From an uncultured Brachyspira sp. (GTDB taxonomy: Bacteria; Spirochaetota; Brachyspiria; Brachyspirales; Brachyspiraceae), in the NCBI RefSeq assembly GCF_944388875.1, contig NZ_CALXKQ010000004.1, positions 1-64,000 of the forward strand: a stretch of 64,000 bases of DNA, written 5' to 3'. Position 1 is the first letter of the stretch. Each line of letters starts with the position of its first letter. Below are positions 12,074 through 48,919 of the stretch, piece after piece. Below the pieces are notes generated by a model. The model saw only the letters and a program-made list of their open reading frames with translations. It was not told where the DNA came from and did no database searches. The translations under genes and the position numbers were made by a program.

Positions 12074-14432
<2,359 letters not shown>

Positions 14433-14438
14433 TTTAAT

Positions 14439-16496
14439 TTATGCCTCAAATTTTATTTTATTAGCTGCTGATATAATAATAGAAGCTAACCCAATAATAG
14501 TCATTGGTATTACAGCAAATATATATCTATATCCGCTATGAGGTGAATATAAAATAGTAATAAAAATAGTTGATATGCTTGAAGATGATATTGATAAAAC
14601 TAAAATATTTAAATTTACAGAACCCTTCTTCTTTATTAAAAATATTATTGATAAAATAAAACATATTAATGATATTATAAAAAAATATACAGGCTTTATA
14701 AATAAAATATCAAAAATATTTTTTTCAAGAAATATTAAAAATTGTTTTTCTTGTTCAGTATATTTAACTGCAAGTTCATTTTTAGGTATAAACTCTGCTA
14801 TTTTAGAACCATATAGATTATTATTATCAGAATCACTTCTTATTCTTTCTATACCAGGAAAAAACAATAATCCCTTTGCAAATATTAATTTATGATATAT
14901 ATATTCTTTAGGATATTTAAATACAATTTTTAACCAATATAATTTAAAATTATCTAAATCAGGTTCTAATAGATTATATCTGTTATCAGAATTCCAAATT
15001 AAATTATCTATAGTGTAATGAGAAAAACTAGATTTTATAGTTTCGAAATTTACTTTTTCACCGTATGCTGATTCAGGCAAAAGATCTTTATCTATTAAAT
15101 AGCTTATGGATAGTATATCATGCAATGGTATATGCCATGTCATTCCTTTGTTTCTTCCTTCTGGTATTAAAGAAGGATATGCCTTATACACAAATACTAA
15201 AAATATACAAATACATATAAAAGATTTTATAAAATTAAATATATATTGTTTAGATAAAAAATTATAATTGCACTTTAACAAATATACATGCACCCAATAA
15301 ATTAAAAATGGTGTTAATGTAACTATTGCTGTATGCGACCATAGGAAAGCAAATATAAATAGAAAACTTGTAATTAATAAAAATAAATTTGGAGATCTAT
15401 ATGAACCCAATTCCATAAATAGTATTATATTTAAATAAACCCAAATAAACATACTATAAGTATAATCTTTATGTAAATCTGGCAAGAACCACCATATATT
15501 TGAAAGAAATGTTAAAAAAATTAATAGAATAGAAAATAAACTTTTAGTTGTATTATAAACTGACATTATTAAAAATAATAAACCAATATACCATAATATT
15601 AAATTAATGAGGAAAAAATACCATACATGATTTCCAAATACTATATTTAAAATCCTAAAGAAAACAGATATGAAAACAGGAAAAATATGTGAAAAGTTTA
15701 TTATTCCCAAAGATTGAGGAAGTATATTTGAAGAGAAATCTCCAAAAATATAATTGCCAGGAAAAAATAGATTAAATCTAAATATTATTTCTATAATAGA
15801 AAAAACTAAACATGTAATAATTAATATTATATATTTTATATCTTTTTCTTTAAATAAAGAAAAAGTATTTTTTAATGCATAATTAAAATATTTTTTTAAT
15901 GTGATTTTATTATCTAAAGAATATAAAATTAAAATAATTTTCTTTACGTTATGAAATACTTTAGCAAAATATAATATAGGAATAATAATAAAGATAATAA
16001 TGAAAATTGATATTATATTGCTTTTTATTTTTAAAATATAATCAACATTATCTATCTTATCAAACTCTATTTTTTCAGAAGAAATTAAATTACCAAAAGG
16101 ACTTCCTTTATAAATATTAATTTCTTCAATAAAATCATTGTCTTTCAAAACTTTATTTGTGTCTATATAAACATTATAAATATCGCTATGCCTAAATACT
16201 TTATCATAATACTGAACTTTAAATCCATAGCTGTAATTAGTTATACTTTCATTTGTAAATATATAGTTTTTAATACCTTCTTCATCTAAGTTCCCATCTG
16301 CATTTATGAACTGATCTTTTATATACGATAAATTATTCAATTCTAAAGTTCTATTTATATGAGAAATATCAAATTTGAATTCACTTAAATATCCAATTCT
16401 TGCTTTTCTGCCAAGTATAGAAAGTGCTATAATAGATACAGCAGATATTATTATTAAAGATAAATATATTTTAAATAAAAATTTATTATTTTTCAT
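14439..16496 (-). CDS. large multi-pass envelope membrane protein (copy 1), GtrC-like partner
   Basis: This protein of about 685 residues has an N-terminal helix, an external domain of about 140 residues (starting RIGYLSEFKFDISH), and then 10 or more membrane segments. The architecture fits GT-C fold membrane glycosyltransferases, but I see no decisive motif. Residues 20-150 are almost identical to the protein at 18435-21128, also at DNA level (about 16074-16290 against 20701-20923). The later parts differ. An in-frame ATG 12 bases upstream exists; the ATG at 16496 is chosen because GGAG precedes it and it matches the paralogue start. Its 5' leader carries a (CAAA)12 tract in a short upstream ORF. 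Confidence 0.8.
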   Translation of the reverse strand: MKNNKFLFKIYLSLIIISAVSIIALSILGRKARIGYLSEFKFDISHINRTLELNNLSYIKDQFINADGNLDEEGIKNYIFTNESITNYSYGFKVQYYDKVFRHSDIYNVYIDTNKVLKDNDFIEEINIYKGSPFGNLISSEKIEFDKIDNVDYILKIKSNIISIFIIIFIIIPILYFAKVFHNVKKIILILYSLDNKITLKKYFNYALKNTFSLFKEKDIKYIILIITCLVFSIIEIIFRFNLFFPGNYIFGDFSSNILPQSLGIINFSHIFPVFISVFFRILNIVFGNHVWYFFLINLILWYIGLLFLIMSVYNTTKSLFSILLIFLTFLSNIWWFLPDLHKDYTYSMFIWVYLNIILFMELGSYRSPNLFLLITSFLFIFAFLWSHTAIVTLTPFLIYWVHVYLLKCNYNFLSKQYIFNFIKSFICICIFLVFVYKAYPSLIPEGRNKGMTWHIPLHDILSISYLIDKDLLPESAYGEKVNFETIKSSFSHYTIDNLIWNSDNRYNLLEPDLDNFKLYWLKIVFKYPKEYIYHKLIFAKGLLFFPGIERIRSDSDNNNLYGSKIAEFIPKNELAVKYTEQEKQFLIFLEKNIFDILFIKPVYFFIISLICFILSIIFLIKKKGSVNLNILVLSISSSSISTIFITILYSPHSGYRYIFAVIPMTIIGLASIIISAANKIKFEA

Positions 16497-16579
16497 AAAC
16501 TGCTCCATAAAATAAAGAGCTGTTTATAAAATAATTTTTTGCAATGAGTATAAATTTATTTAAATGAGTATAAATTTCT

Positions 16580-16651
16580 TTAGAAGAGTAAAACTTGAGG
16601 TTTGTTTGTTTGTTTGTTTGTTTGTTTGTTTGTTTGTTTGTTTGTTTGCAT
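16580..16651 (-). CDS. repeat-containing upstream ORF in the leader of membrane protein copy 1
   Basis: ATG (16651-16649) lies directly before the (CAAA)12 tract and is preceded by GGAAATTAT. It would encode a 23-residue peptide with QTNK repeats, ending at TAA 83 bases before the main start. Loss of one unit (11) or gain of two (14) would shift reading into a frame open past the main ATG, stopping just inside it. Translation is inferred only. Confidence 0.4.
   Translation of the reverse strand: MQTNKQTNKQTNKQTNKPQVLLF
16601..16648. repeat. tetranucleotide tract (TTTG)12, CAAA on the coding strand
   Basis: Twelve perfect TTTG units lie between the predicted promoter (16682-16710) and the start of the gene at 16496. 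They are thus transcribed, in the 5' leader. A matching tract of 14 units lies before the paralogue at 21218-21273. Confidence 0.97.
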
Positions 16652-16681: not shown

Positions 16682-16710
16682 AGTATACCATAATTATCAA
16701 AAACAGTCAA
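16682..16710 (-). promoter_or_regulatory. promoter of membrane protein copy 1
   Basis: On the minus strand, TTGACT (16710-16705), a 17-base spacer, and TATACT (16687-16682). Transcription should start near 16675, about 24 bases before the upstream ORF and the CAAA tract. The same promoter with the same spacer recurs at 21311-21339. Confidence 0.8.
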
Positions 16711-16823: not shown

Positions 16824-17536
16824 CTATTTTACTATTTTACAAATTGCCAATAAACTAGACCCAAATGGTAAATTAATTTTATTTAATAAATATTTTTCTA
16901 TATGAAATATTTTATATAAAAAATAATTAGTTAATCTTGAATTCCCATATTCAAATTTTTTTCTATTAAAAACTTTATCTGCTATCCTTACCAAAGCAAA
17001 TAATGGAAATAAAAAACAATTCATATATGATAATTTTTGTATTTCTAATCCGTTATCTTCTAAAACCTTTCTTAATCTTTTAGAATTATATCTTCTATAA
17101 TGACCATAAAATATATCAGAATTACTAAATAACCATTGATATGCCGGAACTGTAATTATAATAGTAGCATTCTCTTTTATCAATCTTTTTACCTCTTGTA
17201 AAAATCTATTTTCATCTTCTATATGTTCCATAACATCTAAAAAAGTAACTATATCAAAACTATTATCTTTAAAATTATTATCAAAAATATCTATATTTAA
17301 AATATTATTAAATAGTTTTTTTGGATAACTAAATTTTTCTATACCAACAGCGTTTTTAATATATTGAGAACTATCTTTTAATAAATGTCCATTACCGCAT
17401 CCAATATCTAGTAAACTGCAATTATTATGATCGCTAATATTTTTTATTATATATCTATAACAATTTCCCTTCTAACTCTAAACCACCATAGATTATCTTC
17501 TAAATCGTCTATATCATTATATGCTTTATCTTCCAT
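16824..17536 (-). pseudogene. class I SAM-dependent methyltransferase, frameshifted
   Basis: Read on the minus strand, the first part starts MEDKAYNDIDDLEDNLWWFRVRRE (given here in two pieces: MEDKAYNDID and DLEDNLWWFRVRRE) at 17536 and ends at a stop near 17447. The adjoining frame continues with YIIKNISDHNNCSLL, the SAM-binding motif LDIGCGNGHLL, FDIVTFLDVMEHIED, and the C-terminal RRYNSKRLRKVLEDNG to 16824. Joined, they give a complete methyltransferase of about 237 residues of the type found in glycan clusters. One base is missing near GGGAAATTG (about 17461-17470). It lies between the glycosyltransferase at 17650 and membrane protein copy 1. Either a true pseudogene or a sequencing error. 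Confidence 0.8.
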
Positions 17537-17649: not shown

Positions 17650-18432
17650 TTATTTGGTTTTTAAATCATAATAACCAAATACTACTCTTATTAATTGCAC
17701 CATTATTTGTATGTTTCCAAAGAAATTTATTTTTGTAGGGATCTTTCCATTTTTAGGATACACTCTTGTTTGAGGTATTTCTATAACTTTATATCCCAAT
17801 TTTGGTATAATATTTGCTAAATACCATTGTGATTCCCAACTTGTAAATATATCTCTAAAAATAGCTATTCTATCATCATCTATTATCTTCATTGAAAAAC
17901 CTCTAAATGCTGACATTGTTTCAGTGTATTTAAAGCCTGAAGATAAAGATAATAATGGATTAGATATTAACTTTATTGCTAAGATTCTTGATAATGGTGT
18001 ATTTTTATGATATCCTCCTTTCATAAATCTTGAACCTTGTACAAAGTCATAACCTTTTTCTAACATCTCTACAAATTCCATAGTTTGTTCCACACTATCT
18101 TTATTGTTTCCGTCTACTGTAACTATTCCTTTATATTTTTCATCAGATACTTTAGAAAATCCTGCTTTATAGGCATTAGCCTGACCTTTCATTCTAATTG
18201 TAAGTACTGCTCTTACACCTATATCTTTTAAAAAATCATCTTCTATAGAACCATCTGTACTTCCTGCATCTAGTAAAAATATATCTATTTTTTTTGGTAT
18301 ATCTTTATTTTTTAAACGATTAAGCTCTATTTTTATTCGTTCACCTTCATTCCATGTAGGTATTAAAAGACAATATTCATTTATTTTCTTAAAATATTCT
18401 TTATATTCATAATGAGGTATTTGTCTTTCCAT
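17650..18432 (-). CDS. family 2 glycosyltransferase (DPM1-like)
   Basis: The 260-residue protein has a GT-A domain: LLIPTWNEGERI, FLLDAGSTDGS, KAGFSKVSDEKYKG, and VTVDGNNKD where relatives have DADLQ. There is no membrane segment, unlike the enzyme at 13500. The C-terminal half has the DPM1-type FVQGSRFMKGGYHKNTPLSR and GYKVIEIPQTRVYP. It probably transfers a nucleotide-sugar residue to a polyprenyl phosphate. The start is 2 bases after the stop of the large membrane protein upstream, so the two are translationally linked, in the same arrangement as 14439/13500. Confidence 0.87.
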   Translation of the reverse strand: MERQIPHYEYKEYFKKINEYCLLIPTWNEGERIKIELNRLKNKDIPKKIDIFLLDAGSTDGSIEDDFLKDIGVRAVLTIRMKGQANAYKAGFSKVSDEKYKGIVTVDGNNKDSVEQTMEFVEMLEKGYDFVQGSRFMKGGYHKNTPLSRILAIKLISNPLLSLSSGFKYTETMSAFRGFSMKIIDDDRIAIFRDIFTSWESQWYLANIIPKLGYKVIEIPQTRVYPKNGKIPTKINFFGNIQIMVQLIRVVFGYYDLKTK

Positions 18433-18434
18433 TT

Positions 18435-21128
18435 TTAAAGCCCTTTGGATAATCTATCATTAATTAATATAAATCCTGTGTTGAAATCTTCATTTTTTAT
18501 AAAATTAAATTTCATACCAGAACTATCCATATTTAGTTTATATACAAAATACTTTTGATTGTTTATATAAAAATCATAATCTGTAAATTGTACTCTATTA
18601 TCTGTATATAATTTTTTATACTCAATATCTGATATAAAGTAAAAATCATAATCCAATCTTAAATAAATTTTATTAACATTATCTTTAAGAGCTAATATTA
18701 ACCCTCCATTTATATTATTATCTATATTTGAAATAATACTTTTAGAATCCTTACTAATTTTTGAATTATTGCAAGCTATAATTGTATCATTTAGTGAATT
18801 ATTAGTAACTTCTATTTGTGCCAAAAGCTGCCTAACTTGTTTCACATTTCTAGACCAGTAAACTGCATAATTCCAAGATTCATCTGAATTATAATTTTTA
18901 AAAAACAAATTAACAAATCTAATACCATTATCTTTTCCGTATGAGAATGTTTTCCACATATCTATATCATATACATAGTCTGAATTTACAGGAGTATAAT
19001 ATTGTGAGTGTATATTAGTTATCAAGATTTTTATTGATATAATAAATAGAATTATAAATAATATATATTTTAATATTTTTATATTAGGCAAAATATTAAA
19101 TATATATCTTATCAATAGAAATATAGAAAAAATAAACAAAGAAACAGTAATAAGTCTGTCAGCCCCTCCATTTCTTAATGCTATAATAAAAACCAATGAA
19201 AATATAATTAATATTATATTAAGCATAAAATTAATTGTAACTATATTTTTAAATAATACTTTCTTATTTTTTATAATATATGTAAACAAAAATGAAGATA
19301 ATATTATTATCAAAATTACTCCAAATAATGCCTTCTTAGTATAAGACGAATATATACTGCTTCCGCCAACAAATGCCATAATTGATCCGCCTGCATAAGA
19401 AAATATATATGTTGTTAATAAAGAATTAAATGCCATTGGTAATAATAATGAGAATAAAATAGTAAGAAAACATGACAAAACATACAAAATAAAATTATTT
19501 AATAAAATTTTTTCAATGCCATTAGTTCTTATAATATTATGCTTTACCATAAAAGTAATTACAGATAAAATAATAAAAAATACAGGTGTTATAATTTGGC
19601 TGTAAATAAGTAAATTTTTACTAATAACATTAATAAAAGCAGAAGATAACAGCATATCATTTTTAATTGCTATAGGAATAAATATATTGATTAATATTAC
19701 AAAAATTGTTATAAATATTAATATATTTGAAATATTACCTATATTTTTATCTTCATTATAATAAAAATATTTATCTAAATTAAGCAGTATATAAATTATA
19801 AAAATACCTATAATCCATCCAGCTATCATAATTTTTGAAAGTACAGCAGCACCTACAAAAATACCAGATAAAATTAATAAAAGTTTATGTTTATTATCAC
19901 ATAAATTATCGGTGTTAGATGAAGATATGACAAAATAAAGAGATATAGATGCTAATAGTAAGCCTATACCCTCATACCTTATTACTGTGTTTAGACCATT
20001 ACCAGCATCAAAAACAAATTTAGACATTGATAAAATAATTAATAATGATAAGCTAAAAATAAATATAACAAATCTATTTTTTACAATATTTTGAATTTGC
20101 ATTACTCTAATAATATTTATATACATTATTGTAATGAATAAAAAAAATGATGATCTGCATATCATTAAAATATATTCTGTAAATTCAACAAATGATAAAT
20201 ATGGATTTAGACTGTTTTCTAATTCTGTTATATTAGATGCTGATATTATTTTAAAAATATTCCCTATTGGAATAAATATATATTTATATAATACTAACGG
20301 AATCATATTAGGATGTAAAAGATGCTCTGGAAATAAATTACTAGAAACTAATAATATATCTTTTGCATATATTTGAGATGAATCCCAAGCTCTATAGTAT
20401 GGAGCAGATGAATAAATAGATTCATAAAATATAAATATGAATGGAAAAAAAATTAAAAATGCAGCTATATATATATTATTAGACCCTAAATCTTTTACTG
20501 TATTAAATTTATGTACCTTAATATGCTTATCAAAAAAGTTATTAAAAAATTCAATAATATAATTCATTATTGGGAATATAAGTTTTATTATAAGCGGAAG
20601 TAATATATACAATATTAGAATAGAATATAATATTATTAATAGTATAATAATAGATGCTTTTAATTTTAAAGTGTATTTAACATTATCTATCTTATCAGAC
20701 TCTATTTTTTCAGAAGAAATTAAATTACCGAAAGGATTTCCTTTATAAATATTAATTTCTTCAATAAAATCATTGTCTTTCAAAACTTTATTTGTGTCTA
20801 TATAAACATTATAAATATCGCTATGCCTAAATACTTTATCATAATACTGAACTTTAAATCCATAGCTGTAATTAGTTATACTTTCATTTGTAAATATATA
20901 GTTTTTAATGCCTTCTTCATCTAATATTCTATCTTTAGTAAAGAGTTCTTTTATATATGATAAATTATTTAATTCTAAAGTTCTATTTATATGAGAAATA
21001 TCAAATTTGAATTCACTTAAATATCCTATTCTAGGCTTGTTTCCAAGTACAGAAAATAATATAGCAGCAGAAGATATTATTATTAATAATGGTATATATA
21101 TTTTGAAGAATAGTTTATTGTTTTTCAT
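18435..21128 (-). CDS. large multi-pass envelope membrane protein (copy 2)
   Basis: The 897-residue protein has an N-terminal helix, an external domain of about 140 residues nearly identical to that of the protein at 14439, then about 14 membrane segments and a C-terminal external domain of about 170 residues (from NIHSQYYTPVNSDYVYDID). This layout is usual for GT-C glycosyltransferases or surface-glycan assembly proteins, but no catalytic motif is certain. The identical N-terminal parts and identical promoters suggest recent conversion between copies. The leader carries a (CAAA)14 tract in a short ORF. GGAT lies before the ATG. Confidence 0.8.
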   Translation of the reverse strand: MKNNKLFFKIYIPLLIIISSAAILFSVLGNKPRIGYLSEFKFDISHINRTLELNNLSYIKELFTKDRILDEEGIKNYIFTNESITNYSYGFKVQYYDKVFRHSDIYNVYIDTNKVLKDNDFIEEINIYKGNPFGNLISSEKIESDKIDNVKYTLKLKASIIILLIILYSILILYILLPLIIKLIFPIMNYIIEFFNNFFDKHIKVHKFNTVKDLGSNNIYIAAFLIFFPFIFIFYESIYSSAPYYRAWDSSQIYAKDILLVSSNLFPEHLLHPNMIPLVLYKYIFIPIGNIFKIISASNITELENSLNPYLSFVEFTEYILMICRSSFFLFITIMYINIIRVMQIQNIVKNRFVIFIFSLSLLIILSMSKFVFDAGNGLNTVIRYEGIGLLLASISLYFVISSSNTDNLCDNKHKLLLILSGIFVGAAVLSKIMIAGWIIGIFIIYILLNLDKYFYYNEDKNIGNISNILIFITIFVILINIFIPIAIKNDMLLSSAFINVISKNLLIYSQIITPVFFIILSVITFMVKHNIIRTNGIEKILLNNFILYVLSCFLTILFSLLLPMAFNSLLTTYIFSYAGGSIMAFVGGSSIYSSYTKKALFGVILIIILSSFLFTYIIKNKKVLFKNIVTINFMLNIILIIFSLVFIIALRNGGADRLITVSLFIFSIFLLIRYIFNILPNIKILKYILFIILFIISIKILITNIHSQYYTPVNSDYVYDIDMWKTFSYGKDNGIRFVNLFFKNYNSDESWNYAVYWSRNVKQVRQLLAQIEVTNNSLNDTIIACNNSKISKDSKSIISNIDNNINGGLILALKDNVNKIYLRLDYDFYFISDIEYKKLYTDNRVQFTDYDFYINNQKYFVYKLNMDSSGMKFNFIKNEDFNTGFILINDRLSKGL

Positions 21129-21211
21129 AAACTATATCCAAAAATAAATAAGTAGATATTTGAAAATAAGATTTTTCTGCAACGAAGATAAATTTATTTA
21201 GAAGAATAAAA

Positions 21212-21280
21212 TTAATGTTTGTTTGTTTGTTTGTTTGTTTGTTTGTTTGTTTGTTTGTTTGTTTGTTTGTTTGTTTTCAT
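21212..21280 (-). CDS. repeat-containing upstream ORF in the leader of membrane protein copy 2
   Basis: ATG (21280-21278), preceded by TTGGAAATTAT, reads AAAA then 14 CAAA units and stops at once at TAA (22 residues). With 13 or 16 units the frame would stay open for about 33 codons and end just past the main ATG at 21128. The same organisation is found in copy 1. Translation is inferred only. Confidence 0.4.
   Translation of the reverse strand: MKTNKQTNKQTNKQTNKQTNKH
21218..21273. repeat. tetranucleotide tract (TTTG)14, CAAA on the coding strand
   Basis: Fourteen perfect units lie in the transcribed leader of membrane protein copy 2, between the promoter at 21311-21339 and the ATG at 21128. 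Such tracts change length by slipped-strand mispairing. Confidence 0.97.
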
Positions 21281-21310
21281 ATAATTTCCAATATTATATT
21301 TACGCCTAAC

Positions 21311-21339
21311 AGTATACCATAATTATCAAAAACAGTCAA
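21311..21339 (-). promoter_or_regulatory. promoter of membrane protein copy 2
   Basis: On the minus strand, TTGACT (21339-21334), a 17-base spacer, and TATACT (21316-21311). It is nearly identical to the promoter at 16682-16710, including flanks, showing that the regulatory region was duplicated with the gene. Confidence 0.8.
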
Positions 21340-48094: not shown

Positions 48095-48753
48095 TTAATT
48101 AGAAACTTTCAAAGCCTTATCTATCAAAATCTTAAACCTAAAAACAGCATAATTAAGACCTAACCTCAAATAATCATCTTCATCATAACGGCAATATACA
48201 AATCTTCCGCTTATTATCTGATACCAAGCCTCAAGTATTATCTTATTCCAAAACAAAGAAGCAGTATACAAACTTATAAGACAGTCATTAAAATAACAAA
48301 AGTCATCATATTTAACTTCTTTATTATTAAAAGCATAACTTACAAGATTATCAATTTCTGTCTGCTCTATTATAGAAAAATTAGATAAATTACTCGCTAC
48401 ATAATTCTTCTCTCTAGCAAAAAACTTTTTATCACCTGTGCAAACTCATTAATATCTTTAGTACTCCATTCATCGAGAAGACTTACAGCAAGAGTCCCAT
48501 TTATTCTAACATCAAGCCATTTAAAAATATCATCATCAATAATCTTCTCTTCTTTCTCTCTTACATATTTAATATTTTCATTGAAGCTTGGACGATTAAT
48601 ACTTATAATATCATCGCTTTTAAACTTACTTCCTAAAGTAGAGCGGCTGAATACTTTAACAGGTACAATATTTTCTCCGTCATCTTTATAAACAATTTCT
48701 TCTACAATATATCTATTAAAAAAATCAACGCATTTAAATTCTAACTTTTCCAT
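48095..48753 (-). CDS. tail assembly chaperone GT fusion, made by -1 frameshift
   Basis: Downstream of the G gene an open frame without any usual start codon runs from the slippery site to a TAA at 48095 (107 residues, starting ARE). Its frame is -1 relative to G. A shift at T TTT TTG (48424-48418) joins codon 112 of G to it, giving about 219 residues. This reproduces the G/GT pair found before the tape measure gene in phage lambda and many siphoviruses. The extension ends 41 bases before the tape measure ATG. Confidence 0.75.
48397..48753 (-). CDS. tail assembly chaperone G-like protein
   Basis: The 118-residue acidic protein (start EKLEFKCVDFFNRYIVEE) lies just before the tape measure gene and ends a few codons after the slippery heptamer. 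Position, size and the overlap with a -1 open frame identify it as a tail assembly chaperone, although sequence similarity is not recognisable. AAGGAG precedes the ATG. A 45-bp segment with this binding site is repeated 77 bases upstream. Confidence 0.75.
   Translation of the reverse strand: MEKLEFKCVDFFNRYIVEEIVYKDDGENIVPVKVFSRSTLGSKFKSDDIISINRPSFNENIKYVREKEEKIIDDDIFKWLDVRINGTLAVSLLDEWSTKDINEFAQVIKSFLLERRIM
48418..48424 (-). other. slippery heptamer T TTT TTG for -1 frameshifting
   Basis: In the G frame the codons are AGT TTT TTG. Slipping back one base re-pairs Phe and Leu tRNAs on TTT TTT and continues GCT AGA GAG into an open frame of 107 codons. The site is at 6 codons before the G stop. 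Confidence 0.75.
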
Positions 48754-48756
48754 TTG

Positions 48757-48880
48757 AAATTCTCCTTAATTTTTTCACTGATAGGCTATGACAATTACAT
48801 TGTCATAGGTTCAAAAATATAAGGAGTTTTTTTAAATTCTCCTTAATTTTTTCACTCATAGGCTATGACAATTATATTTT
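48757..48880. repeat. direct repeat and palindrome before the chaperone gene
   Basis: Two 45-bp copies (48757-48801 and 48834-48878), differing at a few bases, each contain the ribosome binding site of the G gene. The first copy forms a perfect 10-bp palindrome with following bases (CTATGACAAT, 48786-48795, and ATTGTCATAG, 48799-48808). Confidence 0.8.
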
Positions 48881-48919
48881 TATACATTCAAAATAATTAT
48901 TAAAAAATTTAAAATAAAA

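Follow-up and report, generated by a model that had tools for sequence, protein, structure and literature searches.

A putative phase-variable leader reading frame gating a start-masking hairpin before membrane protein genes of Brachyspira

Two genes for many-pass membrane proteins in a 64,000-nt stretch of DNA from an uncultured Brachyspira sp. (hereafter, the window) are each preceded by a short leader ORF that contains a tract of CAAA units and, in one of its three phases, stays open until just past the start codon of the main gene. The best explanation, which we consider likely, is slipped-strand phase variation of the leader ORF, gating translation of the main gene through a hairpin that masks its start. 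Brachyspira are gut spirochaetes of pigs, poultry and humans, and their surface variation is poorly understood.

In the proposed mechanism, transcription would begin just 5′ of the short leader ORF, in which the CAAA tract makes up the first codons. We infer that slipped-strand mispairing at the locus alters the unit number and thereby shifts the reading frame beyond the tract. If the frame is open, translation of the leader would end shortly after the main ATG, and the ribosomes would melt the start-masking hairpin en route; once the hairpin is melted, the membrane glycan gene would be translated together with the GtrB-like gene that begins 2 nt after it (ON). In the closed frames of the copy described first below (copy 2), ribosomes would stop 72–86 nt before the main ATG, too far from the base of the hairpin to disturb its folding; the hairpin would remain shut and the gene silent (OFF).

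Leaders of the two window copies

The leader of copy 2 (21339–21115, reverse strand) can be read directly in the sequence. Its promoter, TTGACT-17-TATACT with a TG before the −10 element (21311–21339), matches the consensus at 10 of 12 positions. The ribosome site GGAAA (21285–21289) was assigned by sequence, and a GGA is placed likewise in most leaders. The start codon of the leader ORF (uATG, 21278–21280) is followed by AAAA and 14 CAAA units (21218–21273), and about 90 nt then separate the tract from the main ATG at 21128. In both window copies, the tract lies within a leader ORF having its own promoter and ribosome site, and its 4-nt units begin 3–7 nt after the uATG.

When tract lengths were simulated, the assembled phase of copy 2 (n = 14) gave a peptide MKTNK..KH, whose stop ends at 21212, two codons after the tract, and n = 12 or 15 gave a peptide ending in LILFF with the stop at 21198. 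These closed phases terminate at −72 or −86 relative to the main ATG. The post-tract leader ORF (21115–21217) is open only if the unit number modulo 3 is 1 (n = 13 or 16); it then has 33 open codons past the tract, and its TAA stop (21117–21115) lies beyond the main ATG, ending 11 nt past the A. An earlier reading of the sequence alone had described the 14 units after AAAA, the immediate stop in the present frame and a 13-unit frame open for about 33 codons to just past the main ATG, and all of these were confirmed from the sequence and the simulated lengths.

That reading had also proposed the same frame logic in another copy of the leader, which is borne out by copy 1 (16710–16486, reverse strand), with 12 units and one open phase. 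Its TTGACT-17-TATACT promoter (16682–16710) and leader start codon (16649–16651) precede a tract of 12 CAAA units (16601–16648) and a post-tract leader ORF (16486–16600) that is open only if the unit number modulo 3 is 2. The open phase (n = 11 or 14) stops 8 nt past the main ATG (16496), and the closed phases terminate at −66 or −86. A 20-nt duplication in the post-tract ORF joins two open frames; it shifted the frames, and one open frame was nonetheless retained.

As assembled, both copies have a closed phase, which would correspond to OFF, and the ON share is one third of the phases for each. They hold the only tracts of at least five CAAA units in the genome, and 7- and 5-nt versions of the leader occur on three other contigs (C2, C10 and C39). 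Fusion of the leader to the main protein was rejected at the window locus because the main frame is closed by stops between the tract and the main ATG. The main frame is stopped before the main ATG in 37 of 37 leaders that could be placed.

Finding one frame open in a single leader of such AT-rich sequence counts as weak evidence. Some frame also stayed open in 24% of the dinucleotide shuffles of copy 1 (P = 0.24) and in 49% of those of copy 2 (P = 0.49). Because one leader alone offers not more than chance, the case rests on relatives.

Repeat units and open frames across the genus

The relatives comprised 26 Brachyspira genomes, one per species, in draft assemblies in which repeats can be miscounted. 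An exact-sequence search of them with the window leader gave no match outside the window genome, because the units and the surrounding bases differ. A protein-based search with the first 172 residues of the 897-aa product of copy 2 did recover leader-bearing homologues, and leaders were excised from about 70 places. About half of these have a tandem tract between the promoter and the gene, with the units CAAA, CAACA, CACTA, TACAA, AAGCAAC, AAACAAC and GTCTACA. Among the 37 placed tracts, the unit is 4 nt long in 18, 5 nt in 11 and 7 nt in 8, and in none is it a multiple of 3. An ATG stands just 5′ of the tract; ATG-anchored tract patterns match 16, 10 and 18 of the 26 genomes, and the reversed-pattern controls were nearly empty.

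Some frame reaches the main start in 35 of 35 leaders whose tract lies 50 nt or more from the gene, against 13.9 ± 2.6 expected, where reaching means ending past the main start or within 25 nt before it, a cut-off chosen after the leaders had been seen. Since paralogues share ancestry, two stricter tests were used. When the substitutions observed in 16 disjoint pairs were placed at random, all pairs stayed open with a modest P of 0.012, a value that considers substitutions alone and ignores insertions and deletions. Among 13 leader classes, the start is reached in 12, compared with 6.4 expected (P = 2.4 × 10−4); ten of the classes were picked as dissimilar-looking or as preceding other genes (the exceptions being the window, CACTA and GTCTACA types), and two have very short leaders that add little. 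The open frames in the 35 leaders and the 12 classes are not due to chance, which supports the selection on the open frame that had been suggested from the window leaders.

Nine further homologues have a collapsed tract, that is, a leader with almost no repeat. In six of the nine, the ORF that begins at the same ATG is intact and ends at −11, −6 or +1, with an ATGA overlap in four of the six, and the other three have early stops. The sequence-only reading had proposed to check in other Brachyspira genomes whether the overlap frame stays free of stops and the other two frames do not. The first part held in all 35 tract leaders, in all classes except one and in the six intact collapsed leaders; the second did not always hold, as two frames are open in about half of the leaders, so that the ON share is often two thirds. 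Leader stops fall mostly between −25 and +11 from the main start.

An open phase is found in 17 of 34 copies, against 18 expected from the open-frame counts, as expected for random drawing of phases. Away from the window locus, two near-identical leaders from different species differ in their predicted state, with 11.4 CAACA units (OFF) in one (G002:C10) and 10.2 (ON) in the other (G020:C206).

These comparisons bear on three other readings of the tract. If the frame were irrelevant, the tract might tune expression by leader length or as an untranslated CA-rich sequence; its position between promoter and gene is compatible with this, and length-dependent leaders exist in other systems. Under such tuning, however, there is no reason for unit lengths that are never multiples of 3, for a start codon directly 5′ of the tract with nearly empty reversed controls, or for frames that stay open throughout the tract leaders and in nearly all classes, and we regard it as very unlikely.

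A second reading, in which what is switched is the leader peptide itself, draws on an FI(A/V)AK-like stretch that recurs in many leaders. This stretch is not always in the open frame (G012:C60 and G022:C91), and the substitutions have no third-codon-position excess: leader mismatches are spread evenly over the codon positions (35/31/34%), and the codon-position test was flat on two alignments. A functional leader peptide was rejected on this test, and the peptide as switched product is highly improbable. Because substitutions do not differ among codon positions, what appears to be kept is the openness of the leader and not its peptide.

Least probable of all the readings weighed is a neutral microsatellite in an AT-rich leader with no switch. 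It is true that chance alone will leave a frame open in a single leader fairly often, but neutrality leaves aside the recurrence with different units, the open frames in 12 of the 13 classes and the leader-specific hairpin described next.

A predicted hairpin over the main start

A feature that goes beyond the earlier reading supplies the mechanism that we propose. The codons after the main ATG are predicted to pair with this ATG and its ribosome site, giving an RNA hairpin of up to 22 pairs, which in copy 2 spans 21095–21150 (reverse strand) and has an inner helix of 21135–21127 and 21118–21110. On 103 nt, its z-score is −3.1 and none of 200 shuffles was as stable; the predicted mean unpaired probability is 0.15 over positions −13 to +2. 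In copy 1 (16491–16531, reverse strand), an upstream arm in the leader ORF pairs with the GGAGC ribosome site and the ATG. This fold is less convincing than that of copy 2 and only moderately better than shuffles, with z = −1.7 on 103 nt (10 of 200 shuffles as stable) and z = −3.2 on 85 nt.

The base of the hairpin lies near −22 in copy 2 and near −35 in copy 1. The distances at which the closed phases stop fit the mechanism, because in the pil1 system of Streptococcus gallolyticus, leaders ending at least 28 nt before the hairpin gave mainly a low profile (PMC3894217).

The potential to form the hairpin is conserved together with the leader. Among 22 positions, 14–21 are paired in 16 leader-bearing copies versus 9–15 in ten leaderless homologues, which have similar first codons. 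Covariation of the hairpin, limited to the nearest clade, is 0.217 versus 0.173 ± 0.015 in shuffled data (reached in 1 of 500), and controls slid along the alignment did not exceed 0.102. After correction by shuffling, the fold energy z is lower in 43 leader-bearing than in 17 leaderless copies (P = 4 × 10−5); leaders of the CACTA type and several others fold weakly. Fold energies of the collapsed leaders are −7.5 to −15.4 kcal/mol where the ORF is intact (six copies) and −3.9 to −5.9 kcal/mol where it is broken (three copies). The hairpin is missing in a copy in which tract and gene are fused (−3.3) and in a copy whose post-tract region is deleted, leaving the tract 10 nt from the ATG (−1.5), so that the main ATG is reached in every phase. 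In this small sample, predicted start masking tracks the leader, being present where a ribosome can arrive and absent where it would never or always do so.

The opposite sign of control was also considered. The open frame crosses the main ribosome site and ATG in another frame, and passing ribosomes might block initiation there, so that the overlapping leader ORF would repress the main gene and the open phase would be OFF. Under repression, however, the main start should not be hidden when no ribosome passes, as it is predicted to be; the collapsed-tract copies that keep the leader ORF open would be silenced permanently; and the hairpin should not be absent where the leader ORF is broken. The restriction of masking to leaders in which a ribosome can arrive is the main reason to prefer activation, and we consider repression improbable.

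Translational activation through the hairpin also agrees with what coupling of a leader to a main gene entails. The leader stop overlaps the main start in both copies (+11 in copy 2 and +8 in copy 1), and the main ribosome site would be hidden without leader translation, the latter by prediction only.

Controlled genes and their neighbours

The gene controlled by copy 2 (18435–21128, reverse strand) encodes a protein of 897 aa with 14 membrane-spanning-like segments, and that controlled by copy 1 (14439–16496, reverse strand) encodes 685 aa with 11 such segments. Neither protein matched Pfam, NCBIfam, PHROGs or PDB sequences. They share the leader and, at 80% identity, an N-terminal stretch of about 170 residues, which forms a module common to a Brachyspira family, and the remainders are unrelated or very diverged. 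The module also occurs in tandem at three places in the relatives (G012:C60, G017:C2 and G019:C6). From sequence comparison, the tandem modules and the diverged remainders suggest module swapping.

A GtrB-like glycosyltransferase gene lies within 2–6 nt 3′ of each controlled membrane gene. The family 2 glycosyltransferase gene at 17650–18432 (reverse strand; PHROG 841, E = 1.2 × 10−14) has its start 2 nt beyond the stop codon of the 897-aa gene and is probably co-expressed with it, and the gene that follows copy 1 is at 13500–14432 (reverse strand; PHROG 841, E = 1.3 × 10−92). These matches indicate similarity to bactoprenol glucosyltransferases of the GtrB type rather than function. A scan of eight neighbouring proteins gave no match to a GtrA flippase. 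Because a GtrB-like glycosyltransferase follows each many-pass membrane gene, the target of the switch is likely to be surface glycan modification.

Between the two cassettes, a methyltransferase ORF (16824–17231), whose Pfam match covers the second half of the family alone, is possibly a remnant. Elsewhere, the window has a 338-bp tandem repeat of 2.5 nearly identical copies at its edge (1–829) and a 77-bp repeat in two copies (48752–48913), each with the inverted repeat TATGACAATTACATTGTCATA, which is possibly an operator.

Other repeat leaders in Brachyspira

Leaders of the window type also stand 5′ of unrelated genes, namely those of a family 2 glycosyltransferase (L138), sugar-nucleotide enzymes (L132 and L150) and another membrane family (L129 and L141). 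Other leader types precede lipoprotein-like genes (L178 and L190) and others. A leader with eight AAACC units (G000:C10:55652–55692, L106) precedes an MBOAT-like acyltransferase gene, a family assigned by eye; one of its frames ends in a TAATG stop–start overlap, and related tracts occur in G006 and G010.

True fusion-type tracts are also found in Brachyspira (L130, L156, L159, L176 and L179). At L130 and at G010:C1:1674615 (L077, L156), the second half of the leader is deleted and the tract is fused to the gene; in the latter, the intervening DNA is lost and one phase allows reading from the tract into the gene. Such deletions appear to turn a coupled switch into a classic in-frame one.

A terminator-like hairpin of −16 to −20 kcal/mol followed by a T run lies between tract and gene in four leaders (L172, L186, L187 and L152), and in the first three of these (−17 to −20 kcal/mol) it lies under the longest leader frame. 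These four are candidate attenuators of the pil1 type, before glycosyltransferase-like and other genes. Transcription attenuation, in which the leader ribosome blocks a terminator and not a start-masking hairpin, could by analogy be proposed for the window, since the leader frame overlaps the terminator-like hairpins in those Brachyspira genes. A terminator was sought and rejected in both window leaders: none lies between tract and main ATG (best 0.0 kcal/mol), and a regional scan found none. Attenuation is therefore unlikely at the window, though the least unlikely of the alternatives to start masking.

Taken together, we lean towards the view that portable 5′ repeat-gated leaders occur genus-wide before unrelated surface genes, with two interchangeable outputs, a masking hairpin in the window lineage or a terminator elsewhere.

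Comparison with known systems

The closest likeness is to pil1 and pil3 of S. gallolyticus, in which GCAGA repeats lie in a short leader ORF that has a ribosome site of its own, and the frame decides whether the ribosome arrives at a hairpin before the gene, a long leader peptide being ON (PMC3894217). Pil1 and the window thus share repeats in a leader ORF that decide whether a ribosome reaches a pre-gene hairpin. They differ in that the pil1 hairpin is a transcription terminator, whereas the window hairpin is predicted to mask the ribosome site and start codon, and in that the leader stop overlaps the gene start at the window. By prediction, the window locus lacks the pil1 terminator and has the features of start-site coupling. 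Moreover, the 4-, 5- and 7-nt units of the Brachyspira leaders recur at dozens of loci throughout this spirochaete genus.

At lex2 of Haemophilus influenzae, 12 GCAA repeats are ON, and 10 and 11 are OFF (PMC6479036). This locus (lex2A/lex2B) resembles the window in having a tetranucleotide repeat beside a surface-glycan glycosyltransferase locus, with the repeat number modulo 3 setting ON or OFF. The lex2 repeats are perhaps in a separate small ORF translationally coupled to lex2B. The lic and mod genes of H. influenzae likewise have units not divisible by 3 directly after a start codon and switch by slipped-strand mispairing; at the window, in contrast, the main frame is closed before the main ATG and the repeat is outside the main protein. 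Gtr O-antigen conversion modules are similar in that a GtrB-like glycosyltransferase adjoins a many-pass membrane protein; they differ from the window, where GtrA is missing among the eight neighbours scanned and the membrane proteins match no family of Pfam, NCBIfam or PHROGs.

Repeat-driven phase variation in Brachyspira was not found in the literature searched, a weak negative, as this was mostly without subscription journals. Versions of the switch recur genus-wide before many genes, and through them the surface can probably be varied by chance. If the mechanism is true, tract lengths from any genome would predict which surface-sugar genes are ON, whereas standard annotation sees intact genes and misses that they can be switched. 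As an output of the pil1 principle, the translational form would be new, and the attenuator-type switch of one streptococcal pilus system would gain a translational counterpart at many loci.
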